Shown: piece after piece, positions 1,890 through 46,553 of the stretch
How the letters are laid out: every line of letters begins with the position of its first letter
Position numbering within the stretch: the first letter of the stretch is position 1
Origin: Coffea arabica
Taxonomy: Eukaryota > Streptophyta > Magnoliopsida > Gentianales > Rubiaceae
NCBI RefSeq assembly: GCF_036785885.1
Contig: NC_092317.1
Span: 3,660,501-3,724,500 of the forward strand
Direction of reading: 5' to 3'
Length of the DNA: 64,000 nucleotides
Translations under genes and position numbers: made by a program
Notes under the pieces: model-generated
What the model was told of the DNA's origin: nothing
Seen by the model: the letters and a program-made list of their open reading frames with translations, nothing else
The model's database searches: none

Positions 1890-4800
1890 ATGGAGGTTGA
1901 TTCGGGGAGTTTGGATCTTCTTTTACTAACTCCATATCAATGTAAAAGAAGAAAATTATCTCCACATGGAAAAGCTGCTTCTTTGTCATGTCAGGATCTG
2001 AGTAGGATTGAATCTTTGTTCCCAACCCTGCAATCAGCCGATTATTTCACTGAACCTAGCTTGAGTAAGCTTGTTACTCAGGAGGCCTTATATCCTGGTT
2101 ATTGCAGCAGAGTTAGGGATTTTACTGTAGGAAGGTATGGTTATGGATGTGTAAAGTTTATTGGGGAGACTGATGTTAGATGGTTGGATTTGGATCAGAT
2201 CATCAAGTTCAGGAGATATGAGGTGGTTGTCTATGAAGATGAAACTACCAAGCCTGCCATTGGTCAGGGCCTAAATAAAGCAGCTGAAGTAACTTTAGTA
2301 CTGCAAACAAGAACTTCAAGAGATAGCTGCAAAAACCAGTCAACCAGAGTTATGGAGAAGCTGAGGCTCAGCACAGAACGACAAGGTGCAAAATTTTTGT
2401 CTTTCAATCCATCAAATGGTGAATGGAAATTCCTTGTTCAACATTTTAGCAGATTTGGTTTGAATGAAGATGATGAAGATGACATAACCATGGATGATGT
2501 GTCTACTGAAGTTCAAGCTCCTTTGGAAATGAATGGTGGAGACATTTCAGACATTGATGAAGAAACTGCTTTTGTTGATGCACCTTCACTTTCACATTCT
2601 CTTCCTGCTCATTTAGGGCTTGATCCCGCGAAGATGAAAGAAATGAAAATGTTGATGTTCCCTTCAGAGGAAGAGGATGAGGAATCCAATGGCATGATTT
2701 CATACCAGAGGGAACGACTGAATAAAGAATCTGTGAAATCTCCTTTAAGACAGTCTTCTCAGCAGATAGTGAACAAAGACAGTCCTCCTTTAGTTCGCAA
2801 GACCCCACTAGCTTTGATTGAGTATAACTCTGGAAGTTTTGGCTCAAGCTCTCCTGGATCAATTTTAATGGCCAAACAGAATAAGGGTGTCCTCCTAAGG
2901 ACAACAAAAGCTGAAGGTTTCAGGCTTGATCTGAAGCAACAAACACCAATAACTGGTAACCATTCTGGGAATATCGTTGATGCTGCATTATTCATGGGCA
3001 GATCGTTTCGAGTAGGCTGGGGTCCTAATGGCGTTCTTGTTCATTCTGGTATGCCTGTTGGCAGTAGTGGCTCTCAAAGTGTTTTATCTTCAGTAATTAA
3101 TTTAGAGAAGGCTGCAGTGGACAAAGTAGCACGAGATGAAAATAACAAAATTAGAGAGGAGCTTGTTGATTTTTGTTTTGAGTCTCCACTTAGTCTTCAC
3201 AAGGAAATGAGTCATGAGACGAGGGATGTTGAAGTTGGATCCTTTAAACTAAAGCTTCAAAAAGTTGTCTGCAATCGATTCACACTCTCAGAGATTTGCC
3301 GTAGCTATATAGGGATTATTGAGAGGCAACTTGAAGTTACAGGGCTGTCTTCTGCTTCTCGGGTTTTACTGATGCACCAAGTAATGGTCTGGGAATTGAT
3401 AAAAGTTCTTTTTTCCTCAAGGCAAATGAACGGACAATTGAAATCTGTGGAAGTGGACCATGAGGGAGACATGATGGCTGATGCTGGGGAAAGTTCTCCT
3501 GAAGTTGACTTGGATGCACTTCCATCAATCCGGAGAGCTGAGTTTAGTTACTGGCTTCAAGAGAGTGTTTGCCACCGGGTACAGGAAGATGTGAGCTCCT
3601 TAAATGAATCTAGTGATCTGGAGCACATATTCTTACTCCTAACTGGCCGCCAGTTGGATGCTGCTGTGGAGTTGGCTGCATCTAGAGGAGATGTCAGACT
3701 AGCTTGTCTTTTGAGCCAGGCTGGTGGGAACACCGTCAACCGTTCTAATATTGTCTGGTAGCTTGATATTTGGAGAAACAATGGGATGGACTTCAATTTT
3801 TTTGAGGAAAATAGGATGCGTCTTCTTGAATTGCTTGCTGGCAATATCCAAGGGGCCTTGCATGATGTTAAAATTGACTGGAAGAGGTTTCTGGGAGTGT
3901 TAATGTGGTATCAGCTTCGACCTGACACTTCTTTACCCATTGTTTTCCACACATATCAACAGCTCCTTGACAATGGAAAGGCTCCATGTCCAGTTCCGGT
4001 GTATATTGATGAGGGACCAGTAGAACAGGCAGTAAAATGGCGTGCAGGAGAACATTTTGATCTTGCTTATTATCTTATGCTTCTTCATTCTTCTCAAGAA
4101 AATAAGTTCGGCTTTCTAAAGACCATGTTCAGTACCTTTGCTTCAACAAATGACCCACTTGACTACCATATGATTTGGCATCAGCGTGCAGTTTTAGAAG
4201 CTGTGGGCACTTTCAGTTCTGATGATCTTCACATTCTTGATATGGGACTTGTTTCTCAGTTGCTCTGTTTGGGCCAGTGTCACTGGGCGATCTATGTGGT
4301 GCTTCACATACCCCATCACAAGGATTATCCTTACTTACAGGCTATGCTTATCAGGGAAATCCTCTTCCAATACTGTGAAGACTGGAGTAGTGATGACTCA
4401 CAGCGACAATTTATTCAGGATTTAGGAGTTCCTTCAGCATGGATGCATGAAGCTCTAGTAAGTCGCTCTGTTTCTTTCAAGTCTGTTCATTCCTTTAGCT
4501 TGGCGTAGATTACTTGTGTTATGGTTGGGAAGCTGCAGAGATTTTTCCCAGCTCTGACAGGTTTGAGGAATTTTTATTTTGGGCTTCCTTTACAGGTGTA
4601 GTAGAAATATAATATTAAGGAGTCAAATTGACTCGTTCTGCTCCACTTCTGGTTGTCATAGTTCATTTGCTTAAAGGGGAAAAATTAAGAGCACTATATA
4701 GGGGTTCCATTCTGCTGATCTTTTTTTTTTTTTTTTCAATTTAAAATGCATGCAGGCAACGTACTTCAATTACTATGGAGACTTTTTCAACGCCCTAGAA

Positions 4801-7082
4801 CACTTCCTTGAATGTGGGAACTGGCAAAAGGCACACTCAATCTTCATGACTTCAGTTGCTCATTCTCTGTTTTTGTCAGGTGAAAGACTCGAAGCTACAT
4901 TTTCTCTTTCTTCTACCTATTACCTCACTATGTTGCTCATACTGGCTGATACAATTTTTGTTCTTTTGGAGCATGTGACAGTAGTTTCCCTCAAGAATTA
5001 GATGCTTGCCACCTTATTACCAAAGATTTTACAAGTGGTTCAGATATAGTGCCTGCAAGGAGAAACTTGGAGTTTCTTCACAGCATGCTTTTGAATTGAT
5101 TTAACCATTATATATTTGTGTACATTGATTATAGCAGCGTAGGTAGAGTCACATGTCTCTGCTTTCTCTCTAGTTGTCATTAGTTTAGAACTTCGATTAG
5201 ATCTCTTTTGAGAAGGGAGGCTTGGTTAATTGATTTGAGCTTATGCAAGTTTGGCACACTTGAACTCCTGGTATAGTAGCATAGAGAGGGTTGAAACAAT
5301 TTTTCAACCTAGTTTTTCAAGGGGAAGCTCAGTCTGAGTTATAGGCCGTGTCTTTCAAATTTGACCAAATAAAAGTTTGATGAAGAAAACTATAAATGTT
5401 ATTTTTGTGGGAGCTTGGCATTTTTTTTGTCACTATATATTCCTAGTTTACTGTCCATAAGGCTTAATTTTTTAACAATAAGTGGTAGTAAATAGTGCTA
5501 GTCCTTTTCTTTTTCTTTTTTTTTTTAAAAAAAATTAAACACTTTATAGTCTTGAAAGTGATAACACACTAATTTTTTTAGAGAGACCTTTCTAATCCAT
5601 TAAATGTTGAGTTATGCTCCTACAACCGGTGCTTTTAGGCAACATTCTGTGTCAGAATGAGTCTGCTTAGATTTGCTTTTTAATTTCCTAGCTTGGTATG
5701 ATCTCTTCTTCTTTTTGTTTTTTTGGTAATATATATTGTCTTCCAGTTTATATTTGCACTATTTAGGTGGTAGCAGAACATTCTTTTCCATTAAAATATT
5801 GGGCAATCATTTACATTCTGGGCCAATGGTTTACATCAAGAGATCTTCTTTGCTGCTGTTTGATGGTATTGTTTAATCTATTAAAATATCCCTACTTTTT
5901 GCAGCCAAGCACTCAGAGATATGGCAGCTCGCTACTTCCATGGAAGACCACAAGTCAGAAATTGAAGACTGGGACTTAGGAGCTGGAATGTATATTTCAT
6001 TTTATTTGTTAAGGAGCTCTTTGCAGGAAGAAAGCACCACAATTAATGAACTGGTACAATAATCCTTGGAAAAGCTGCAAATGTTTGTTAGGGCATTCCA
6101 TATCTCAAGATTACATGTGTCAGCTGAATGAATGATTTCAAATGTTAAAACTCAGATCTCACATGTCATGTGAAAATTTCACCACACAATTCTCCTTGAC
6201 ATGTTCCCTGATATATCATTCTCTGCCTTGTGTTCCCTCAGCATATGTTTGTGCTTTGTGTGAGGACTAATGAGCACGGTGATGGTTGCAGGATAACCTA
6301 GAGAACAAAAATGATGCCTGTGCAGACTTCGTTGGTCGAGTGAACAAGTCTTTGGCCGTTTGGGGTAGCAGATTGCCTACTGACTCAAGGTATTGATAGT
6401 ATTTTCTTCTTCCTTTTTTTTCTTTAATCCTTTGGAATTTCTATTTGGATACGCAAATAAGGTAACTATACATTATAAATGTGTATAATTTGAACTGAAA
6501 TGATCAGTTATAGGATGGATTTTGCTTATTTTCTACTTCATCTATATCCTTTTCTCTTGGAGGGATGTTGAGTTAATGGAAACATGGAAGCAAGTTGGAC
6601 GCTTAGCATTGAACTTGTTCATTTACCCTGTACAAGTAAAAAAAATTTTGCATTTGGATAACTATTTTCTCCTTTTTCTGTGGAAGTTGAACTAAAGTTT
6701 TTGTTTAAAATTATGCCAATCTCCTTCTGTGCTTTCTATAACCGCTTTTCTAGTTGATGTGCTGTATAGGGCATCATCTTGCTTTTGATTTCCTGTTTTT
6801 TATGGTTCTTGCGGGTTTCTTGTTTATTGGATTGTTCCTTCATTTAATTATTTAAGCATCTTCACGACGTACTGGCGTCTCAGGGTGGTTTACTCAAAGA
6901 TGGCTGAGGAGATCTGCAATCTGCTTGTGTCTGAAAGCGGTGAGGGTTCAGGCATTGAAGTTCAGTTAAGCTGCTTCACGACCATATTCAGAGCACCCCT
7001 CCCAGAAGACCTTCGCTTATGCCATTTGCAAGATGCCGTCTCATTGTTTACCAGTTACATCTCAGAGGCTGCCCCCCAGTAG
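1890..7082 (+). CDS. NUP96: Nuclear pore protein NUP96, with an in-frame stop in exon 1
   Basis: This is a scaffold nucleoporin of the NUP107-160 (Y) complex, orthologous in appearance to Arabidopsis SAR3/MOS3. That gene acts in mRNA export, auxin signalling and immunity. Coding exons read as 1890-4457, 4756-4879, 5905-6053, 6292-6389 and 6884-7082, all with GT-AG borders and compatible phases. They total 1046 codons, matching the roughly 1046-aa Arabidopsis protein. The N-terminal part (about residues 40-200) resembles the autoproteolytic NUP98 C-domain fold (motif VRDFTVGRYGYGCVKF). The remainder is the helical NUP96 domain with conserved stretches such as LDYHMIWH and FQYCEDWSS. Oddity: codon 624 is TAG (3759-3761), where relatives have Gln. 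Homology continues in the same frame on the other side, and every other exon is open. The allele as read would end after 623 residues. It could be a real nonsense allele, a heterozygous site or a base error; the family call itself is secure. Confidence 0.93.
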
Positions 7083-31600: not shown

Positions 31601-34143
31601 GTATAAGGGCCTTAACGTGCTACCTCAGTGCCATCCGACGCTGAGATTGATCTCTTTGTAAGAATTATTATCCACAGAACACAATCATTTCCTATATATA
31701 TACATATATAGCTTCTGATAAACATCGTTTTCACCGAACACTACTGTTAATTAAAGAAAAGGGAGAGACGTATTCTCATTGGAGAAGAAAGGGATCAGGA
31801 AAGAAAAGGACATTAGTTTGCAGTTTTAGTTGGAAATTATTCAGTGCACAATAACCATGCTTGGCGGTATTGTACACTAGGAGAAGATGATTGTCAATGA
31901 ACACTGAAAAAACTAGCTTTGAAAACTGTAGTACCGTAAAATTAGGATGAAGCCTCACAAGACAAATAGTAGTTTCAATCCACAATCCAAGATTTTCTTT
32001 ACTACTCCCCCTCCCTCCCTCCCTCCCTCTCAGATAAAGAATAATACCATGTTTGTTTGGACAGGAGATTATATATTGAAAAGAATTTTTAGAATAATCG
32101 CATAGAGCGTGCGCTTTACTTTAGGGATAATATGATATACGTAAAATAAAAGTTTATCAAAAACATAAAAAAAAATAATTAAAAAACATGTCCAAGGGCA
32201 GAGTGGCATGATAGCTGCAGCGTAGACTCGCGAGTGTGTGTGTGTAGTGTATTGCTAATTTGCTATACACATTTTTTATACGTACAAGTGTAGGTTCGTG
32301 TCACGCATTTACATGATGATGATAATGAAACTTGTGTTGACAATCCCAGCAGGATGAAAAGGGTGTGGTGGTATCCGCCCAACAGCACACGATCGATTGT
32401 GATAAACTAAAAAGGCTAAAACAAAAATAACAAATGCACATGCATGCAGTGTCTTTGGATGACATTATGGGGCAATTGTGAAATGTGGGAGAAGCCAAGG
32501 GACTTTTGCGTTGATTCCTTGTTGGGTTGAGTTTGCTTAGTCTAATCAAACAGCAAGTCTAGATAATAAAGCTGGTTAGATTTCTTTGTCTGCATATCTG
32601 ATGCAATCAACATCAGAAAGAAATTTTGAAGAGGAAGCTTTTGTAGCCTTTTCTATCGCTGTCTTTCAGTTTCACATAGAAAAAGGCAGATCACGAAAGA
32701 AGAGGAATATATCAAAGTCCAAACACCACTTCAACTATGACGTCTCCCGTTCCTTTTAAATGTCACATTCAAACCCACACCATCTCCCCATTTTTCACTT
32801 TACTTCTTGTTGCTCGGTTCGTACATGAATCAGCTTAGAAGTGGATCCCTTTTTTTCCCCCAGAAAACCCCACAAAAAATAAAAAAATGTGGATCACAAT
32901 TTACAATAACCGCAGAAAAAAGTGAATTAAACTAACCCCAGCACAAATTGCATTAAATCCTTCTCTGAACTGTAGGTTGGGGGTTCAAACTAACCCCACC
33001 TTCAGTAATAAAAATTTAAAAATTGTGTCAAAACATCCTTTTGATTTAATCAAATCTATATACCTGTTAACCTCTCTTACGATACTATCGTTGCCCGGCC
33101 AAAAAATGAAAAAGGTGAATCACAATTTACAATGCCCATTTTGCTAAATGAATTTGACAGCAGGCCAGGGTACTGGGCATGGTCAGCATCGCGCTGCTCC
33201 AGTGGATTTGGAAGAAAACTCTCGCCCCTTAGTCTTCTTGGCCCATTTGGCTTGCCCAATCAACAACCCGCCCAGCCACAGCAACCCCCATATTTGATAC
33301 TATTAAAACCTAGAAAATCCCCAAAAAAAAAGGAAAATGGAAAAGTATATACGTATTTCTTATTTTGGCCGGCATGATACTTTCAGCTAAGTAAGGTATG
33401 CTGAAACTTGTTTTGGTTACAGACTCCCACTTTCAAGTAGGTAATATTTTCGAAAGGGTTGGGATCTTCTCCGTTCAATTTCTCTCCATTGTTTATATCT
33501 TAATTTATATAATATTATAAAATTGTGTGATTGTGCCTTTAATTTTTTTAAAATCTCTAAATCAACATACTAAAAAATGATATGTATTTTTTTGACAATA
33601 TCTTGACATTCAATTTAAAATAAACATTTGAACAGTGAAATATGTATATATAGGTCAAAATTATGAAAACAATTGCAATGACTAATTAGACGGCAAAACT
33701 TGGTCAATTTCATGCAAAATTTTATGTATAACTGACACAAGTAATGAAATATATTATAAACCGTGTTGATTTTCGAATATAATTTCTAAATTAATTTTAT
33801 TAAGGCGTAATCGAGAGAATTTCCCTCCAATGTAACGGAGAGGAGCCTAATCATTCTCAAAAAAACCTCATTTCAATAACAGACAAGACTCTACACAACC
33901 ATGCTATAGAACTTTCTTTCTCAATAATTAAAACGCTACACAACTTTCTCAATCATTTTCAGTCAACCGATGGATATCCAAGATATAAAAGCCCAACAAA
34001 TTTAAGCACGAATTTGAAGTTAACTCAATGATAATGCCATATAAAGTCCAAAAGATGACCTGGTACAACGTCTTGTTACAAACTCAGGATGATTTATTTG
34101 TTACAAACGTCTTGTTACAAAAGATGACCTGGTACAACGTCTT
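28610..34143. other. Gene-poor AT-rich region, left part
   Basis: No gene is supported on either strand. It contains the zinc-finger promoter and leader (from 28610), simple repeats (TATC at about 29193-29206, CCCT at 32008-32030), several long A/T runs, a possible decayed TGTTTGGAC-type MITE near 32048, and a 28-bp repeat at 34050-34077 and 34119-34146. In Arabidopsis the gene between ZFP1 and L7-1 is CMT1 (recalled); nothing like a chromomethylase is present here. Confidence 0.5.
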
Positions 34144-34303
34144 GTTTGAATAAGAGTTTATTTGGATGATTTATTTGAAATAATTACTGTAACACTTTTT
34201 ATGATGTGATGTATGTGAGATAAAAAAGATGATAAGAAAGATAAAAAGATGATTGAAATTTGTGAAGCAAATTATTTTATTTCAAATCTTGTTTGTCCAA
34301 ACA
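34144..34303. mobile_element. 160-bp MITE of the TGTTTG / ATTTGAAATAA family
   Basis: The ends begin TGTTTGAATAAGAGTTTATT and finish GTTTGTCCAAACA. The inverted motif ATTTGAAATAA near the left end pairs with TTATTTCAAAT near the right end. The interior has the ACTGTAACACTTTTTATG phrase shared with the copy at 16743-16880. No clear target duplication. Confidence 0.5.
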
Positions 34304-34364
34304 CACCAGACACTAAGAACTAAGGATGAATTGTATGGACAAAGGAAAGAAATGCACAAGCAAC

Positions 34365-34736
34365 TAGAGCTGTTAAACGAACCGAACTGTTCGGTAACTC
34401 GGTTCATTTCGAACGAATTTTTTTGTTCGATTAATAATCGAGCGAACATGAGCATGTTCGCGAGTTTTAACGAACGTTCGCGAACATGGGCATAATTATC
34501 ATTTGACAAATTTTAGAATTAATTTTATGGCTAGACTTTTATGTTTGGAGGGTTTTATTTGTTATTTTTATGTTAATGTTAGTTATATAGTTAATGAATA
34601 ATAGAATTTAGTCACTTAGTGCTTTAATTATTTTTTAGAATGATTAATGATTTATATGGCATATTTAAGGCTTAAAATAATTTGGATTCGAACATTTCGA
34701 GCATGTTCGCGAACGGCTTGTTTATATTAAACGAGC

Positions 34737-34770
<34 letters not shown>

Positions 34771-34930
34771 TACGAATTCGAACTCGAACATGAACTTTGT
34801 TTAATGAATCGAACAAACACAGGTTTGGAGTTCGAAAATTAACGAACGAACATGAACGTTGTTCGAATTGCTTAACGAACAGAGGTCAAATATGAGATAC
34901 TCGGTTTGATTCGACTCGTTTACAGCTTTA
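34365..34930. mobile_element. 566-bp hAT-like MITE with 8-bp target duplication
   Basis: It starts TAGAGCTGTTAAACGA and ends TCGTTTACAGCTTTA, an imperfect terminal inverted repeat. It is flanked on both sides by the identical octamer CAAGCAAC (34357-34364 and 34931-34938), the duplication size of hAT transposons. The subterminal parts are dense in GAAC/CGAAC repeats, including about five consecutive GAACAC-type units at 34738-34768. No coding capacity. It is the best preserved of four related elements in the window. Confidence 0.8.
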
Positions 34931-36313
34931 CAAGCAACTAAATTTAGATGGAATTAATTTTTTTTTTTTAAAAAAAAGAGTAAGGATGGAACGACAGTAT
35001 ATCTTAATATTCAAATCTAGCATGCCGGCAATATTGACAGTCCAGATACATGCACCTTGCAATTAAAGATTACATGGAAAGTATATGTACGAGGAACTAA
35101 GATGAAAAGGTAAAAACCATGTGTACAAATTAAGCTGACCATCATGGGGAGTCAACAACATTTTGCCAGTGCTTGATCCAGGCTTGACAATGTGCATCTT
35201 AAGTTTCAATGGATGCAAAAATTTTCACAAACTCCTGTTTGAACCCAACTAAAGATCAAGGTTTCTAGCCTTGGAAAGTTACTGAAATTTTCGCATCTAG
35301 CTGAGTAGAGGACAATATCAGCAACGTTGCAATACTTGCAGAATGTACATACGAACATTTGACAAAACAAACATATATACCACACTTGTCAAATTTATTC
35401 CACTTTGTACCCCTCTAATTTATACCCATCTAGCTTAGGGAGCTAGCAACTGTGGTGAATTCCTGATTGATACCATTGCTGAATCTAAAACTTGGGCTTC
35501 CTCCTCAATTTTCTTGTAAATATCACCTCTGTAGAAATGTCTTGTCCTAAACAAAACAAATGAAACAAGACATCCAAACAATGTGGCAGCAGTTATTATC
35601 TCAAAAGATCGCCTGTAACATTTCATGCCCTGGTATGTTAAACTTTCCCGACTTTCCTAGTGAGTCCCAATGTTGCTATTTGCTTCATAGCCACCTTGTC
35701 ACAGAGATAGCCCGCCATTCTCAACATTCAACATGTAACAGCCAAATAGACTAGCCCGGCACCTAAATATTGTCAAGTCGAGTGGTATCTCTGCTTCTGC
35801 TCTGATTGCTTGTAATGATATTAAACAGCTATTAATGTGTCAATAACTAAAACAACCTTTTCAATAAGTTTATGGATTTAAGTGTACGATTATTACTAGC
35901 TCAACTCCTCAAACATTTAGTACAAGAATTCCAGAAAAGGAAGAAAGAAAAAAAAAAAAAAAGAATTCGAAAAAATTGATTGCCGTGCATGGGGGCATAT
36001 TGCTGCATTCTAAATGATTGGGACTGAAACACAACTATTTAAAATATGAGGGACCTTTCTAGCAATTTATCCCAAAAAGGGACGTTCTCAGCTTATTTCA
36101 CTAGGGTTTAATAAGTATTGGCAGCCTTGTATATCTTCCCCGCTCTCTCTATTTGTTCTCCGCAACAGGACCGCCACTGCTTATCGCTCCGACGGGTGTT
36201 TCTCCGGTGAGCTTTTGAGAAGACGACGTTAACATTGCTTCTCTTTGTTTTATTAATTATTATTTTATTTTTTTCTTAGCTTTAATTTAGAGGTTGTGCA
36301 GAGATTTAATACT
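34931..36313. promoter_or_regulatory. Intergenic with promoter and leader of the L7-1 gene
   Basis: No gene is seen at 34939-36060. A telo-box (AGGGTTTA, 36103-36110) lies about 200 bp before the start codon, as expected for plant ribosomal-protein promoters. A CT-rich leader follows, and the T-rich stretch at 36240-36290 may include a small leader intron. Confidence 0.5.
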
Positions 36314-39300
36314 ATGGCGGAAGAGGAGCCGAAGCCGTTGAATTACATACCAGAGGTGATATTGAAGAAGAGGAAAAACAATGAGGAGTGGGCGATTAGG
36401 AGAAAGCAGCAGTTGGAGCAGAGAGTTAAGAAGCTCAAGTCGGATAATTTCGTTATTAAGAAGCCTGAACAGTTCATCCGAGAATATCGCGACAGGGTAA
36501 TTTTTCTCTTAATTTCTTGCTTTTAAGGTACTAAATTTTGTTAAAGTTGTTCAATTCGTAATACTACCACTATTACTTGATCTCTGTTTCCTGTGAGTAC
36601 AAAGAAGTTTGTAATACCACTAATAGCTTCAGAATTGATGTTTAACACAAGACTTTCTCCTAGCTGTCCTTTGATATTTTGAGCATACCTGATTCTGTAT
36701 TTGGAAAATTTGAGCTTTCGAAGATTCTTCATGTATTAGTCCCAAACGTGTGTGTTTACATGAGGTTTTCTTCGTATTTGTGATCTGTGGCAATGAAGTT
36801 ATGAATGCAAAAAACCTTGGACTATGATCTTGTCCTTGGGAAGGCTGTAATAATTGAATGCCCTTCTATTATGATCTGAAATGACTTCGTCCTCCTCTGT
36901 GTTGTGTGACATATGGGATGTAATCTAGTTTACCAAATTTGAAGAACAAAAACAGCGGAAAGAGGGAAGAAAGGGGTTCTTTTTTTTAGGTTTTTTTTTT
37001 TGGGGGGGTGGCGGGGAGGGGGACAAATGAAAATGCCAATTAGCAGAGCAAGTGCATCAAATTTTATAAATGATGAATCACTTGCATTGAAGGTTGGCAA
37101 CAGTATAGTGATTCTCCGTGCCTTTCAAATTCACTCAGTTTTGATTATGGCCTCGAACAAATCACTACATTTTTCAAATCTCCCCCACCCCCTGTCCATG
37201 TGCATTAGTGTTGTTAGTCATCTGACTATAGTCTGCAGTTGAGTTATGTCCTTCTGATCTAATTCCAATGAATGCTATGTCATACATGTTGGAGCCACTG
37301 AAAAGCTTTGAGTACTCATTTGGTGGACATGGCTCTCTATAGTATTTTGGGTTGTACCACTTCTTTTCCGTTGCTATCCAGCAGCAGAACGTTATTGAGT
37401 TATGACCTTAAATTTCATTGACAAACTTTTCTACTATCTGCCTATGTTCTGGATGCTTGGTTATGATTTGCTAAAATTCTTACTGTGAAATATTGGTATC
37501 CATTGAGCTGCTAATTGGAAGGGGGACAAATGAAAATGCCAATTAGCAGAGCAAGTGCATCAAATTTTATAAATGATGAATCACTTGCATTGAAGGTTGG
37601 CAACAGCACCCATATAGTGATTCTCCGTGCCTTTCAAATTCACTCAGTTTTGATTATGGCCTCGAACAAATCACTACATTTTTCAAATCTCCCCCACCCC
37701 CTGTCCATGTGCATTAGTGTTGTTAGTCATCTGACTATAGTCTGCAGTTGAGTTATGTCCTTCTGATCTAATTCCAATGAATGCTATGTCATACATGTTG
37801 GAGCCACTGCAAAGCTTTGAGTGCTCATTTGGTGGACATGGCTCTCTATAGTATTTTGGGTTGTACCACTTCTTTTCCGTTGCTATCCAGCAGCAGAACG
37901 TTATTGAGTTATGACCTTAAATTTCATTGACAAACTTTTCTACTATCTGCCTATGTTCTGGATGCTTGGTTATGATTTGCTAAAATTCTTACAGTGAAAT
38001 ATTGGTATCCATTGAGCTGCTAATTGGGAGGGGCACAAATGAAAATGCCAATTAGCAGAGCAAGTGCATCAAATTTTATAAATGATGAATCACTTGCATT
38101 GAAGGTTGGCAACAGCACCCATATAGTGATTCTCCGTGCCTTTCAAATTCACTCAGTTTTGATTATGGCCTCGAACAAATCACTACATTTTTCAAATCTC
38201 CCCCACCCCCTGTCCATGTGCATTAGTGTTGTTAGTCATCTGACTATAGTCTGCAGTTGAGTTATGTCCTTCTGATCTAATTCCAATGAATGCTATGTCA
38301 TACATGTTGGAGACACTGCAAAGCTTTGAGTGCTCATTTGGTGGACATGGCTCTCTATAGTATTTTGGGTTGTACCACTTCTTTTCCATTGCTATCCAGC
38401 AGCAGAACGTTATTGAGTTATGACCTTAAATTTCATTGACAAACTTTTCTACTATCTGCCTATATTCTGGATGCTTGGTCATGATTTGCTAAAATTCTTA
38501 CAGTGAAATATTGGTATCCATTGAGCTGCTTTCAATATTTGTATTATCCTGCCTCTCATGTCTCATATGTCGAAGCTAATTTTATTTGGAAAACTGCAGC
38601 TTCAGAAACCAGCGCTTTTTGTCATCTGCATGTACTGTTGTGTTGTCTGATATCTTTGCGTCCTGATAGGCTAATATATTTGTCATTTGCTGTTTGGCCA
38701 GGAGATGGACCTTGTCCAAATGAAAAACAGGAAGAAGCAACTTATACGGAGTGGCGTGATACCCGACTCCAAGCTTCTATTTGTCGTACGCATAGGAGGG
38801 TGGGTATCTAGACATCTTATTCACTTCCAATTAGTCAATACAATGATCTATTAGATCTTATCCTTGGACATTTATGAGTTATTTGGGGTGCCTTTAAAAT
38901 TGTACATCAATTCGCCATTTTTTATTTGTTTCAGAAAGAATGATATGCATCCAAACACACGGAAGGTTTTGTATTCCTTGAGACTGAGGAGAGTGTTTAA
39001 TGGTGTCTTTCTCAAGGCGAATGGAAGGATAATGGAGATTTTGAAGAAAGTGGAGCCTTACATCACTTATGGGTATGCCAAAGCTGAACCGTATTGCTGC
39101 TGATTCATATGAAGTTACAAGCTATACTTAATAGCATGTGAATTCTGTTATGTTTTTATTGAGTTGTACGTATATCTGCTCCTTTTAGAGGTCTGCTTGA
39201 CATGCTGACTTGAAACAAATGATTGGCTTATCCCTGATAAAACCTTGGGACAATTGATTGACTGTACTTGCTCGCAACTGCCCACCTTGATTTGCTGCAT

Positions 39301-39996
39301 GTCATCTCTTTTTTGAGTTCAATCTTCCTCCAGTTCTCCGTTATCGTTCTTGAAATCTAATTGCTTGACAACTCTGTGTTGTGTAACTTTGTGAGAATTT
39401 AGCTTTTTTTGCTGGCAAATACATCTGTTCTCATCTTTACACGAGGTGGTTGTCCAAATAACATGTTGCAATTCTGCAATTTCAGTAAAAGATGGTTAGC
39501 TGTACATAAGCATACTGAATACAGGTTATATTTCTGTTCTTGTTTTGCGTCCGCTGGCTTCTCAGAAATACATGTTCACTTATAGGTATCCTAATCTGAA
39601 GAGTGTGAAGGATTTGATATACAAGAAAGGCGTGGCAAAATTTGAAAAACAGAGGGTTCCTTTAACTGACAACAACATTGTTGAACAGGTATGAGAGAGA
39701 GATCACTTCTTTGTTGCTTGGGTCCTGTCTGTAGTTGCTTATTAAGATTAGCAATAACGCGTTTCAATAAATTTTTGCAGGCATTGGGCCAGTTTAACAT
39801 AATATGCTTAGAAGATATTGTAAATGAGATCACAAATGTCGGCCCACACTTTCAGGAGGTCTCCAGTTTTCTTTGCCCTTTTACTCTCAACAAGCCTGTA
39901 AAGGCATTGCAGGGCAAGAGGAGACGATACAAGGACGGTGGGGATTCTGGAAATCGTGAGGATGACATCAATGAGCTGCTTCGCAAGATGAATTAA
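36314..39996 (+). CDS. RPL7: 60S ribosomal protein L7-1 type (uL30 family)
   Basis: This is an L7/L30-family protein of the large ribosomal subunit or of its assembly. Five coding exons, 36314-36496, 38702-38799, 38935-39072, 39586-39688 and 39781-39996, give 245 residues, the usual L7 length. The N-terminal basic extension contains [13 protein letters not shown]. The uL30 core has [21 protein letters not shown] and the highly conserved [23 protein letters not shown] and VGPHFQE stretches. It ends [15 protein letters not shown], as in L7. The N-terminus differs from the canonical plant L7 (which I recall starting MVKGVVVPE). It resembles the divergent Arabidopsis copy At1g80750, so an Rlp7/RPL7L1-like assembly role is possible. 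Intron 1 (2.2 kb) carries a triplicated repeat, listed separately. Confidence 0.94.
37023..38530. repeat. Three tandem copies of a ~509-bp unit inside L7-1 intron 1
   Basis: The copies run 37023-37525 (503 bp), 37526-38034 (509 bp) and 38035-38530 (ends early). They differ by a handful of substitutions and one 6-bp gap: copy 1 lacks the CACCCA present in copies 2 and 3. No terminal inverted repeats, poly(A) or target duplication. Each copy starts near ACAAATGAAAATGCC and ends near CATTGAGCTGCT. Each also keeps an open frame of about 78 codons, explained by the recent copying rather than by coding. The near-identity implies recent expansion by unequal exchange. Confidence 0.92.
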
Positions 39997-40678
39997 CACG
40001 TTGATGGAGTTCCTTATCTAGATATTAAGTCAACGAGCTGATGTACTTTTTTTTCTTTTTTTTTTGGGAATTAACCAGTTCAAGTACTTTAAAAGCTTTG
40101 GAGCATGTAGCTGTAATTCTTTGTTCCGTTAATTAAGGAATGCGTATCATGTAGTAATATAAGGATTTTGTCTTTAATGCAGTTGCACGGTAACAGAATG
40201 GAATTTATCATTGTAGTATACTTGGTTAACAACAATACTAATCTGAAAGTAATGAATGATCGGAAAAGAAAAATGGAGTAATTAGTGGTCCAGTTACAAA
40301 ATGATTGTATGAGAAGCAAAATTTTAAACATAGCCTCAGGCTACGATTGGCTATATTCTGCATTCAGAAGATGTAAACTAGCAAGTAATCAATTTTCGCA
40401 TACAGGCCAAGAAGTGAAACATGCCCCGTAGCCGCGGCATGTCATTTGAAAGTGTCCGCCAAATGGAACCTTTGTGCCGAATTCGAGGACGTGGTGTACA
40501 TTACGCCAGGATTCGAGGACGTCCAAGCTCTTGAAGCCGAAAGCCTGAATCATTGCGCCATTTAGATTTAGGTGTACATCATTATGTTGTTTGTTGTTGA
40601 ACTTTGTCTAGACGGCATGCAAACGGTTAACCTTAATCAAAACGAATAGCAGCTTATACGAATGCTCTGGTGTTTGAC
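39997..40678. other. Short intergenic: L7-1 3' UTR and upstream region of the small membrane-protein gene
   Basis: No gene is seen. A T-run lies at about 40045-40065. A short direct repeat with ATTCGAGGACGT occurs at 40480-40530, upstream of the next gene. Confidence 0.5.
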
Positions 40679-41029
40679 ATGGAACACGGTGATGACTGGT
40701 TAGCCCTAGACAAACTCTACCACGTCCTGTTCGGCTTCTGCGCCACTATCATTTTCACTCTCCTTGCTTCCCGGACCCGCTACGCTTTCATCCGCAACCG
40801 TTCAACCTGGGTTGGGTCCGTACTTTCATTGATGGCTGGCGCTTCCAAGGAGGTTGCAGACGAGATGGGCTACTTCAAATCCGCCGGTGCTTCAGCCAAA
40901 GATGCTGTCGCCGACCTCTTCGGGACTTTAATTGCTGTTTTTGCTCTTTGCTTGACTGAATCATTTAATATCCCGGTGGGACTCGGATCTGATTATTCGG
41001 ATCAAGTTAAGAGGGTCGAGATGGTTTGA
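40679..41029 (+). CDS. Small intronless membrane protein, tentatively YfiM/DUF2279-like
   Basis: The product is a 116-residue protein encoded by one exon. I recognise the type only loosely. LDKLYHVLFGF near the N-terminus (about 10-20), then a hydrophobic segment (about 14-31), a second one (about 40-53, WVGSVLSLMAGA), the polar motif GASKEVADEMGYF with SAGASAKDAVADLFG (about 52-80), and a third hydrophobic stretch (about 78-95). The order DK..H, then KE..DE, then KD..AD..G is what I recall from bacterial YfiM-type (DUF2279) membrane proteins. That link is an inference. The start is the first ATG in the frame; an in-frame GTG lies three codons upstream. Codon choice is GC-richer than the flanks, which supports a real gene. 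Function unknown. Confidence 0.78.
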   Translation: MEHGDDWLALDKLYHVLFGFCATIIFTLLASRTRYAFIRNRSTWVGSVLSLMAGASKEVADEMGYFKSAGASAKDAVADLFGTLIAVFALCLTESFNIPVGLGSDYSDQVKRVEMV

Positions 41030-43383
41030 GATTGACCTCGTCAGGTGCAAAGAGGACATAAAGCTGTCCACTTGTGAAGGAATCATCTGTCAGGTTAGCT
41101 GGATTCATTTGATGGGTGTTTTTCGTTGCTCAGAAATTCCAAATTAATATGCAGTTTTCCTCATCTTTTTGTGATGGTTGCTTCTGTTGATGAAGGATGT
41201 GAAGTTTCAAATTCGTGGATGCACTTAGCTGTAGAGGTAATAGCTACGTGATTAATCTGTTTTCTGAATGATTTGATATTTGGCCATTTCAGATGACTTT
41301 ACCTATTTATTCTCTCTTTCGAAGTCGGTAATTTGAGATGATATCCTCTGTATGCATATCTGTTCATTTGGAATTCATAGAGGGGTCAATTAGTTTTCAT
41401 GAAGGGGTAAAGGTGACGACTTTGTTGATTGGTTTTCATGAATTTGCTACTTGACTAGCTGTTTGATTTTTAACCTGTCCTAGAACTGAAAGTATATATC
41501 CTGTGGTAAAAGTTAGATTATTCCACCAATAAAGTGTGTTGTGTGTCGTTTGTATAGACACTTCGGTGTCGTTTGTTTCACGAGGATCTTCGGGAATGTG
41601 CATCCCCTTCCAATAACAGGGCTGTTAAAGGTAAACTCATGGTTTGGAGTGATTTAGGAAGTGATTATTATTGTTAATTATTGTTTAAAAGTGATACAAT
41701 TTGGTTGAAACTTGAAAGGACACCTAAATGATGCTGCATTGCTGTCCATCAGCGATGTTGATTTCGTGGAACTGCAATGCACTTGTTTGATTGTTACTCA
41801 TCCTCCTTCGGGAGATGTAAACACACCATAAACAGGATTGACACTGATGTAAACTGTTTTTTAAGAAAATACTGTGGCTGACCTCATAACAATCAGTTGC
41901 ATCTTAGAAACTCCCAATTTTTATTTATTTGTTTGTTTAGAAACTCCATGTTATTGGTCCAGGATTTGTCCATTCTTGAAAACTAGTCTCCTTAGCATTC
42001 ACAGACTTGTGCTTTATTCAAACTGGTGATCGATGCACACTCGATGTGTGTGCAATCTTGGTACTTTGTTGCTATTTCTAGTCAAATCATCAGCCTTTCC
42101 TACCTATTTAGTCTGATGTAACCTGAAAATTCTGGGTGAAGTATGGTAAAACAACGAATAGGCTGAGATGAGATGTTTGGAGCAACACTTGATCTGTTGC
42201 ACTGCGTTCTGGGATAAATGCTGAAGCATGTAGCTGGTCTTGTTGCAGGTGTTGTTGAGTTGCAGAAATGGTGGCTGTGACAATGGTTTGTTGGTCTCCT
42301 CATGTTTGGACAGTTACGCCATCAAGGATTGGCTGAAGCAGCATAACAATCTGAGAATCTGGTTTGGAGTTCATACGCAGGACTTAACGAATTGACATCG
42401 TATAATCCTCCGGCTATGTGCATTATCTAATTCTGGCAGCCGATTTCCAATTTGCTCAAACATCTGATACACGCATCTGCTTTGTAATGACTTCAATATC
42501 TCTACTGCTCCCGTTGAACTACATTGCCAACTGGATTGCTTTCCAGTGTTATCCTTTTCCACCCTGTCCTACAAATCTTTCAACCGTGATAGATCTTCAT
42601 ACCCATCGTGCAGTTCTGCAGGGAGTAATAGAGGCCATGGACTCAAAGGCTTCTGCAATAGCCTCCTCTTTGGGTGGACTCTTATGATTCTTGTACTTCG
42701 GGGTGGATCTAGATACCTTTTTTTTTTCAGTTGGTTCAATGTTTGCTAAAACGCAGAGAATATCTCATCACTTTCTTAAGAAATTTGTAAAGCAAATGCC
42801 TTAAATTCGTTTCTTTAATCGTTTAATTCCACCCTTAGCACCAAGGCTTGTTTTTGGCACGAGACAGCTGGGCCGTTCTAAAAAATCTCCCAGAGCCTGC
42901 CTCATATAGCAACAAGAAGGATGGCAAATTGGCAAGACTTGAACTGATAATTTTCATGGTATTAATTCTTACCATTTTGTCACAATGAGACAATTCATAG
43001 ATACAGGCAACGATGCTAGCAAGACTCGAACTAATGATCTTACAATACAGCTCTTAAATTCTTTTCAACTAAATAAACTAGAATTGAAAATCTCACAATA
43101 CAGTTATTGCTTCCTTTTCATCTAAGCTATGCATATCCTCTCAACCAAGCTATGTGCCAAAGCAAAAATACAAATTTGGAATTTTAGCCCCGTAGAATAA
43201 TCATCTATTTATGAAACATTATACTAGCTAGACTATGTGATGAAAAAAAAAAAGCCAGGCTATACGATGGATGAGCTTAAACTCTAATTTTTCATTTTAT
43301 AACTCTAATTTCGCTTTGATGACATTTTTTTTTGGGCGAAAGTAGTTCAACAGAAAATTAAACAAAAATAAAAGGGTGGTAAG
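41030..43383. other. 2.35 kb intergenic region, mostly unassigned
   Basis: It contains the 3' UTR of the small membrane-protein gene, possibly spliced. At 42090-42690 the minus strand has Gln-rich and other peptide-like stretches in several frames interrupted by stops; they resemble a decayed coding sequence that I cannot identify. At 42920-43150 there is a tRNA-like array, listed separately. Confidence 0.4.
42920..43150 (-). repeat. Degenerate tRNA-derived (SINE-like) units in tandem
   Basis: On the minus strand, box B-like motifs AGTTCAAGTCTTGCC (from 42948) and AGTTCGAGTCTT (from 43032), plus a weaker TTTTCAATTCTAG (about 43080-43092), each end a similar AT-rich unit. The last two units align over ACAATACAG...CTTTTCA.CTAA (plus-strand reading). 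This suggests tandemly repeated, old tRNA-derived repeat copies. No intact cloverleaf is visible, so this is not a working tRNA gene. Confidence 0.4.
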
Positions 43384-43826
43384 TAGGGATGTACGCGAAT
43401 AGCTTGGTCAATGGCTTGGCTTGAACTCGGTTTGACCGAGTTCGAGCTACTCGAGTACACATTTGAGTCGAGTTCAAGTCAGAATTTTGCAGCTCATCGA
43501 GCCGTATAATTTAAATAATATATATAATATAAATAATATATATGTACTATAATTATAAAATGATCATTATGGATATAACTTATACTAAATTTACAAGTAA
43601 GGTGTCGAGTCAAAAAGCTTAATTGCTCGACTGAATAAGGCTTGACTAAAGGTCGAGCCTTGTCGATTCTCATCTCGAGCTTTTAAAGATTTTCTCGAGT
43701 CAAACTCGAGTTTGAGATTTTTCGACTCAATCGAACTCGAGCTCTAAGTTATTTATAGGTTAAGTCGAGCTCGAGTATAAGCTGTATAGCAATACTCGAG
43801 CTCGACTCGGCTCGAGTATAGCAGTA
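43384..43826. mobile_element. 443-bp hAT-like MITE, TCGAG-rich
   Basis: It begins TAGGGATGTACGCGAATAGC and ends in ...CGGCTCGAGTATAGCAGTA. It is flanked by GTGGTAAG (43376-43383) and CTGGTAAG (43827-43834), a 7-of-8 match to an 8-bp duplication. Subterminal parts are packed with CTCGAGTT/TCGAGCTCGAG motifs. The terminal inverted repeat is poor beyond the outermost bases. It ends just upstream of the RPSA promoter. Confidence 0.6.
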
Positions 43827-43842
43827 CTGGTAAGCTCTGTAG

Positions 43843-44127
43843 TGGGCCTTGGTCTTTGGACTGGTTACCTATGCTTGAAACGGGCCAAGAACAACACAAC
43901 AGTCTGATCTGAAGTCTGAATAGACATAGAGAGCCCAGGGGCAATTAAGTCAAGAAAATTAACTAGGGTTTCTGATGAGGGTATAAGGGCTATATATTTA
44001 TTTCAGTCATCAGTAAAGAAGCCAGCCTTCGTGTTCATTTTCCGGAAACCAGAACAACCCTAGTTTCCGCCAGTTTCCCCCGCCCGACAGGCAAAAGAGC
44101 AAAAGCGAGAGAGGGATTGACAAAACA
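43843..44127 (+). promoter_or_regulatory. RPSA promoter and leader: site II, telo-box and TATA motifs
   Basis: A site II element TGGGCC (43843-43848), a GGGCC at about 43880, a telo-box-type AGGGTTT (43965-43971) and a TATATATTTA (43991-44000) stand in the order usual for plant ribosomal-protein promoters. The start codon follows about 130 bp after the TATA motif. Confidence 0.6.
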
Positions 44128-46553
44128 ATGGCGACTGCTACTACGCAGAAACAGCTGTCGACGAAGGAGGCCGACATCCAAATGATGTTGGCCGCCGAAG
44201 TCCACCTCGGTACCAAAAACTGCGATTTCCAGATGGAGCGCTACGTCTTCAAGCGCCGCAACGACGGTAAATTCCCATTCTATTTTATTTTGATCATATT
44301 TTAAATTTATTTTTTAAATTAATTTGTTAGTACTGTGCTATGTCGTTACTCGTCTGGTGTATGAGGATCTTATGGTATTCTAGATGTCTAATCGTTCTGG
44401 TATTATTTGCCTTGTTAGGTTCTCACATTTTCGGGCAATTATCTTTTAGTAGTCAATTCTGATGGTAGTGCAAGTCCTGACGAGTATGATGGGATCTCAA
44501 TTTTGAAGTTAAATTATGGGGAATAAATTTCTGATTTTAGGTGTGAGTGACAATCTTTGAATATGTCGGGCTTTTTCTTTCGTCTCGTTTGAAGTTAAAT
44601 TATGCCTAACGTTATGATCTAGCTGGAACTGAATGAAACTTGAAATGGTGCAGAATTAGGAATTTGGCTTCTGTTACTCTAAAATTAGGACACCTGACGT
44701 AGAATTTTGGACGAGCAGCTAGGTTGTAGGCTTAGCTAGTTGTAGATGGCCTTTTTTTCGGTGTGCTTGAAAGCTTTACTGAATGTGCTTGTGAGTCTTT
44801 GCCACTGGCCATTTGGTCCAGTGGTCATCACCATTAAAGGTGACGCTGGAGGTCAGGGGTTCAATCCCTGCCTTCCACAAATTTGCCACAATCTGTGGTG
44901 GTCTTAATTGACCTTCATTGATAGAGTCTGTACTCACATCGAACCCCCTCCCCTTCCCCTTAGATTATGCTAGATTAGGTTATAGGACATCTATCGTTGC
45001 GACAAAAAAAAGTGCTTGTGAGTCTTTTACTTTTGTTTTTATTGTATGTTGATTTTTATTGTTAACGGCTCAGGAATTCACATCATTAACCTTGCAAAAA
45101 CATGGGAAAAGCTTCAAATGGCTGCGAGGGCTATCGTTGCGATTGAGAATCCTCAGGACATTATTGTCCAATCTGCCAGGCCATATGGTCAGAGGGCTGT
45201 CTTGAAATTCGCTCAGTACACCCATACTCATGCAATTGCTGGGCGCCACACTCCTGGTACCTTCACCAACCAGCTCCAAACCTCATTCAGTGAGCCTCGT
45301 CTCCTTATCCTTACAGATCCAAGAACTGATCATCAGGTTATCCCTCGTTCTTGTTTGAGGTTTACCAACTGGGCTTTTAAAATAAAAAATATGGACGGAA
45401 TTGTCTTGCTTGTTATGATTCTCAAACTTCTTTTGAACTACCTGCAGCCTATTAAGGAAGCAGCTCTGTCAAACATCCCAACCATTGCTTTTTGCGACAC
45501 TGATTCCCCTATGCGATATGTTGATATTGGTATCCCTGCTAACAACAAGGGGAAACACAGTATTGGTTGCTTGTTCTGGCTTTTAGCAAGGATGGTTCTA
45601 CAGATGCGTGGTGTTATCCCACAGGGTCACAAGTGGGACGTTATGGTAAACACTACTGTGTTTTTGTTTTGATTTCACATCTATCAGTAATTTTGCTCAT
45701 TCAAATGGGGAATATGCTCCAATTGATATTCCCCAATTGACTTCTGAAGTTTGATGATGTTTGAAATCTTCATAATTTCTTGTTTGGATTAACATGATGT
45801 TCTGACACACATAAACAAGTGGCAGCAAATTAGACTGAAATTTGTTTCTGTTACTTTGCATGTCTGAAATATAGTTCTTTTTTTTGCATTTTGGCAGGTG
45901 GACCTGTTTTTCTACAGGGAGCCTGAGGAGGCCAAGGAACCACAAGAAGAGGAGGCACCTGCTCCAGATTATGGTGACTTTACTTCTGCAGCTCTTGGAG
46001 TTCAGGATAGTTGGGGTACTAGCAATATTCCAGAGGGAGAATGGACAATGGCTGCCCAACCTCCCATTCCTGCAGTTCCTGCAGCTGGTTGGCCTGCAGA
46101 GCCTGGTTAGTTTCTGTCCTTTAAAACAAATAATATTATACGAAAAGTGTTTTACTGCCAAGTTTTTGTATTTAAGTGTATAATGTGAAATGGTGAATTG
46201 GCTGTCCTTATTTTGTTAGATGCTGCCACCAGTTTATGGCTTAAACTTTTTTAGTTAAAAAACAAGTGTTTTTGAGTATCTTTTAATTCTGCAACTTTTG
46301 TTATCTATCCTTGGTACATTGATGTCCCTAAGCTTACTGCTTGTGATCCATTTGTGTTGAATCGTGCATTGTTTTTATTTTGTATCCTAACCCTGTCAAC
46401 TAATTGTGGAAATTTGTCTTCTGATTGTCTTCAGTCCCTGCAGTATCAACTGACGGATGGGAGGCAACTGCTGCACCACCAATGGCTCCTGGAGTTAGCC
46501 CCATGGCTCCTGGAGTTAACCCCGTGGCTCCCCCCGGTGGGGATTGGGAGTAG
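44128..46553 (+). CDS. RPSA: 40S ribosomal protein SA (uS2, laminin-receptor homologue)
   Basis: This is the uS2 component of the small ribosomal subunit, required for 40S maturation. Five coding exons, 44128-44266, 45074-45336, 45448-45645, 45898-46105 and 46435-46553, give 308 residues. The uS2 domain (about 15-205) shows [12 protein letters not shown] near the start, [35 protein letters not shown] and GLFW-like [16 protein letters not shown]. The plant C-terminal extension is acidic, then Pro/Ala-rich with repeated MAPGV units, and ends GDWE. The third exon has [13 protein letters not shown], a normal plant variant. Phases agree at every junction. Intron 1 (807 bp) holds a SINE. Confidence 0.96.
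44785..45027 (+). mobile_element. tRNA-derived SINE with 16-bp target duplication in RPSA intron 1
   Basis: Body 44801-45011 (211 bp). Box A-like TGGTCCAGTGGTCATCACC and box B-like GGGTTCAATCCCTGCC form the Pol III promoter, followed by a tRNA-unrelated part and a terminal GCGACAAAAAAAA tail. The identical 16-mer GTGCTTGTGAGTCTTT flanks it at 44785-44800 and 45012-45027. Same orientation as the host gene. The perfect duplication implies a fairly young insertion. Subfamily not assigned. Confidence 0.88.

Follow-up and report, generated by a model that had tools for sequence, protein, structure and literature searches.

The premature stop codon of NUP96

How can a gene for a nuclear pore scaffold protein come to carry a stop codon in the middle of its reading frame? 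The question is raised by NUP96 in a stretch of 64,000 nucleotides from Coffea arabica (C8:3660501-3724500, hereafter the window), for which a preliminary description had reported a TAG at codon 624 of an otherwise open frame. Rereading at 3759-3761 of the forward strand, with codons counted from the ATG at 1890, confirmed that the TAG is truly present in the C8 sequence. On either side of the stop the NUP96 frame is open, up to 3758 and then from 3762 beyond the end of exon 1, and homology is found on both sides. Within exon 1 (1890-4457) it holds one stop in 856 codons, as compared with 38 to 86 stops in the other five frames. The claim that homology resumes in the same frame directly after the stop was also borne out; when an X was placed at the stop, codons 591-855 aligned without a break across it to Arabidopsis NUP96 (PDB 9SOB chain M, E 9.7e-125), a chain of the Arabidopsis pore model (PMC12626886). 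As had been anticipated for the relatives, codon 624 faces Gln in 9SOB_M and also in 7vci_F and 5a9q_5, the two animal Nup96 chains among the alignments listed, whereas the C8 copy reads TAG and is truncated there. A stop in frame, with conserved coding sequence following it, is among the features expected of a homeolog that was disabled by a nonsense change.

The gene model comprises five coding exons (Table 1), which, if stop 624 is read through, give 1045 codons and a terminal stop, all introns being of the GT-AG type. The total of 1046 codons given earlier holds only when the terminal stop is counted, the sense codons being 1045, while the statement that the four downstream coding exons are open agrees with the model, as do their GT-AG borders. 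Membership in plant NUP96 is supported by PF12110, found above the cut-off whole in the second copy on C7 (see below) and split in C8, where positions 1-44 of its 295 profile positions lie before the stop and 48-291 after it. It is supported as well by the alignment of residues 343-1042 of the C7 protein to 2-699 of 9SOB_M (1084.7 bits), the 9SOB chain beginning at about residue 343 of the coffee protein; the C8 frame aligned to this chain in two pieces, or with an X at the stop. Arabidopsis NUP96 (9SOB chain M) and the animal Nup98-Nup96 chains share this domain order, with an autopeptidase-type domain first and the Nup96 helical domain after it.

Table 1. Coding exons, domains and premature stop of the C8 NUP96 gene (window positions)
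Feature	Position	Strand	Comparison or source
Premature TAG, codon 624	3759..3761	+	CAG (Gln) in the C7 homeolog
Coding exon 1, begins with ATG, stop inside	1890..4457	+	C7 length equal
Coding exon 2	4756..4879	+	C7 protein aligned to 9SOB_M
Coding exon 3	5905..6053	+	C7 protein aligned to 9SOB_M
Coding exon 4	6292..6389	+	C7 protein aligned to 9SOB_M
Coding exon 5 (last), regular stop codon	6884..7082	+	C7 protein aligned to 9SOB_M
Nup98-type autopeptidase domain PF04096 (residues 50-191), before the stop	2037..2462	+	Pfam
Nup96 domain PF12110, cut in two by the stop	3621..4457	+	Pfam

The intact copy on the paired chromosome

The genome searched comprised 1,197,963,845 bases in 131 contigs. 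A DNA search with the 801 bases that surround the stop returned two matches, the window itself on C8 and C7:3887134-3887934 at 99%, and a PF12110 profile search likewise returned two loci, the one on C7 without a stop and the one on C8 with one TAG; as these searches score the best candidates only, a third, diverged NUP96 copy could escape them. A second NUP96 copy elsewhere in the assembly, which the preliminary description had suggested looking for, is hence at hand on C7, the paired chromosome. It has CAG (Gln) at codon 624 and is not truncated. The two coding sequences are of equal length in all five exons, align without gaps and differ at 29 of 3138 bases (11 synonymous changes, 17 missense changes and the stop), and codon 624 of C8 is the only internal stop across both copies. 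In the noncoding part of the NUP96 region, 84 of the 3943 aligned sites differ.

The intact C7 copy sits at a collinear homeologous place, as is also expected of a nonsense-disabled pair. The two neighbourhoods are broadly collinear, with indels, as judged from aligned segments longer than 300 bp with more than 88% identity, which leave 25.8-32.9 kb of the window uncovered; a zinc-finger frame within this uncovered part matches C7 in order. On C7 (80 kb from C7:3883001, local positions 34710-45028), about 6.4 kb of extra sequence was observed between window 34082 and 35062, and at window 37014-38530, in the region 34082-38530, blocks of about 500 bp align out of order with respect to C7. For eight window frames other than NUP96, five of them with a Pfam family, no internal stops were seen in the C7 matches, the PPPDE frame being covered to 83% and the zinc-finger frame having one gap of three bases. 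When the C7 PPPDE frame was compared with the window, one stop was found within the match, and it may fall beyond the conserved domain, on the border of the frame.

Neighbouring contig numbers act as pairs in our gene-family searches. A segment of 116 residues of the solved xanthosine methyltransferase 2eg5, which we take to be from C. canephora, matched C17 at 100% and C18 at 98%, suggesting that the odd contigs are probably the canephora-derived subgenome and the even contigs the eugenioides-derived one. By the order at this other chromosome pair (C17/C18), the broken C8 copy is probably the C. eugenioides-derived homeolog. Three caffeine-synthase-like first exons at C2:680473, C2:689462 and C2:700940 match the 2eg5 segment equally (97%), and the comparable end of C1 has one such exon (C1:806674, 94%).

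Divergence of the two copies and age of the stop

No advanced decay of C8 NUP96 was seen, its coding sequence having no second lesion and changes not being enriched beyond the stop. Between C7 and C8, Ka was 0.0050 and Ks 0.0155 downstream of the stop, and Ka was 0.0083 and Ks 0.0172 upstream of it. A recent nonsense change fits these data because there is no second lesion in the C8 coding sequence. The polarity of 18 codon differences was read by eye against the aligned relatives; five appear derived in C7 (codons 108, 616, 742, 759 and 993), four appear derived in C8 (codons 546, 905 and 1025 together with the stop) and nine are undecidable, two of the C8-derived changes sitting after the stop. 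This pattern fits a recent stop, without dating it.

Over the whole gene, the NUP96 pair has a Ka/Ks ratio of about 0.42 (17 missense, 11 synonymous), versus 0.19 (16 and 23) for the sum of nine other window frames, which are not all proven exons and from which the PPPDE and zinc-finger frames were left out. The contrast is not significant (Fisher p 0.14), and the idea that selection has been relaxed across the entire NUP96 gene was set aside. A separate observation concerns residue 759, which is Cys in the intact C7 copy and Tyr in Arabidopsis and the animal chains.

Probable loss of one homeolog and alternative explanations

We consider it very probable that in C. arabica the C8 homeolog, probably that of the eugenioides side, bears a single recent nonsense change in NUP96 that is tolerated through the intact C7 copy. 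A single C-to-T transition would have turned the Gln codon 624 from CAG into TAG, and such a mutation needs no special cause, given that 56 of the 1045 codons of the C7 copy are one C-to-T step away from a stop. Loss of the C8 function would be tolerated because the C7 copy is intact and able to supply the pore scaffold protein, buffering the loss. Between the stop and the following exon junction lie 696 nt; a stop far upstream of an exon junction is the usual setting for nonsense-mediated decay, and thus the C8 mRNA should be a target of this pathway and is probably degraded by it. Any C8 product would keep the N-terminal autopeptidase domain and lose 422 of the 1045 residues, and with them the greater part of the Nup96 domain. 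From the options offered in the preliminary description, a duplicated gene is upheld by the intact C7 locus and a recent nonsense allele fits, there being no second lesion, while heterozygosity is unsupported and a base error is unlikely. That a scaffold gene should be lost is no longer puzzling, as an intact parental copy is present on the paired chromosome.

If the TAG were an error of base calling or assembly, C8 would in truth have C at the site and NUP96 would be intact in both copies; a lone substitution with no other coding lesion is what such an error would look like, yet we hold it to be very unlikely. HiFi data err mostly at homopolymers, and the longest homopolymer in the 34 bases around the stop is 3. 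Moreover, C7 and C8 differ at about 1-2% of sites, and since C7 has C at the site, mixing with C7 reads would yield C and not T. The published C. arabica assembly is HiFi based (PMC11018527). A real stop could be older than polyploidy, having come from the C. eugenioides-side parent, in which it was fixed or segregating. Arabidopsis nup96 mutants are viable and early flowering (PMC8953349), so that a diploid could in principle carry the stop, but loss of Nup96 in Arabidopsis brings broad defects (PMC8953349) and in the broken C8 copy the part beyond the stop is not enriched in changes, and we judge this origin unlikely. It is possible, if rather doubtful, that the stop belongs to a heterozygous allele or to one confined to a cultivar, and that other C. 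arabica plants carry intact C8 alleles, there being no sign here that the stop is fixed in the species. The published line ET-39 is di-haploid (PMC11018527), which makes heterozygosity unlikely, provided that our sequence is that assembly, although an allele limited to some accessions is unaffected by this argument.

A full or near-full protein might be obtained from C8 through readthrough of the stop or through an in-frame intron that splices out codon 624, and the frame downstream is indeed still open and homologous; even so, we find this barely credible. CARYYA is a plant-virus readthrough motif, and the CTTGAT that follows the TAG does not fit it. Folding of the RNA 3' of the stop showed no unusual stability (z -0.36, with 71 of 200 shuffles as stable) and C7 has the sense codon CAG at the site, so neither a stop conserved between the copies nor a stimulating structure, by which programmed readthrough would be recognised, was found. 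As to splicing, it had been stated that no intron could remove the stop. This is too strong, since lax cut-offs (donor score of 4 or more, pyrimidine share of 0.4 or more) gave 14 in-frame GT-AG pairs spanning the codon; it agrees with the strict donor cut-off of at least 6 of 8, which left 0 candidates from the 24 GT sites in the 400 nt upstream, but which would also miss three of the four donors of NUP96 itself (scores 6, 5, 4 and 5). The lax pairs listed would remove 222-582 nt of conserved sequence, that is at least 74 residues, and rescue by an in-frame intron (exitron) appears improbable from the sequence. Alternatively, a truncated protein of 623 residues could be made and have its own role, for instance by altering dosage in the Y-complex or by acting there as a dominant negative. 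Its frame does retain the autopeptidase domain together with the beginning of the Nup96 domain, yet the distance from the stop to the exon junction is a setting for mRNA decay and no sign of selection keeping the fragment was seen, which makes such a role highly improbable.

Homeolog loss in Coffea arabica

C. arabica is a young allopolyploid of 350,000-610,000 years (PMC11018527), in which loss of function in one subgenome copy, with the other copy kept, has likewise been reported as homeolog loss, silencing or pseudogenes. In the Geisha assembly 8,617 conserved loci are without a full ORF (PMC11708220), one homeolog was found silenced in 156 of 9,047 genes (PMC5015950) and about 5% of BUSCO genes are back to single copy (PMC11018527). 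However, what the accessible text of these three reports gives is genome-wide counts in which NUP96 is not named, whereas here one nonsense base is located in a conserved scaffold gene. Our literature search for NUP96 in Coffea found no account of a coffee NUP96 stop, and the C8 stop is apparently a previously unreported instance. Because homeolog loss and silencing are already documented genome-wide in C. arabica, this is a fresh instance of a familiar process, and the probable loss of C8 NUP96 is of the ordinary kind met in hybrid polyploids of recent origin. Even a gene for the pore scaffold can gain a stop because the genome keeps a second parental copy, and the C8 stop provides a clear marker for diploidisation in an allopolyploid crop. 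Being a single-base, subgenome-specific probable null, it could serve to examine whether the dosage of the Y-complex is of consequence.

Other nucleoporin genes

Among the nucleoporin families sought, with partial gene coverage and with NUP107 unmatched, NUP96 is the only pair with a one-sided stop. The partners found with PF11715 (NUP160) and PF07575 (NUP85) have the same stops on both sides, which are taken to be matches running through introns, and those found with PF04096 and PF08801 have no stops in the matched parts; the PF04121 (NUP107) profile search of the genome gave no match. Nup96 and Nup160 are described as hybrid-incompatibility genes in Drosophila. Perhaps, by analogy, the loss of C8 NUP96, in an allopolyploid formed from two species, was favoured by selection as a way of resolving a mismatch between the two parental pore scaffolds and did not come about by chance. 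We regard this as scarcely plausible.

Several further matches of the profiles, all without a full partner match, were observed in these searches. They comprise an extra PF08801 (Nucleoporin_N) copy at C9:5637810-5639123, a tandem copy of PF04096 (NUP98-type autopeptidase) at C3:73487268-73487690, and PF04096 fragments at C4:73323706 and at C3:73480672, the latter with three stops.
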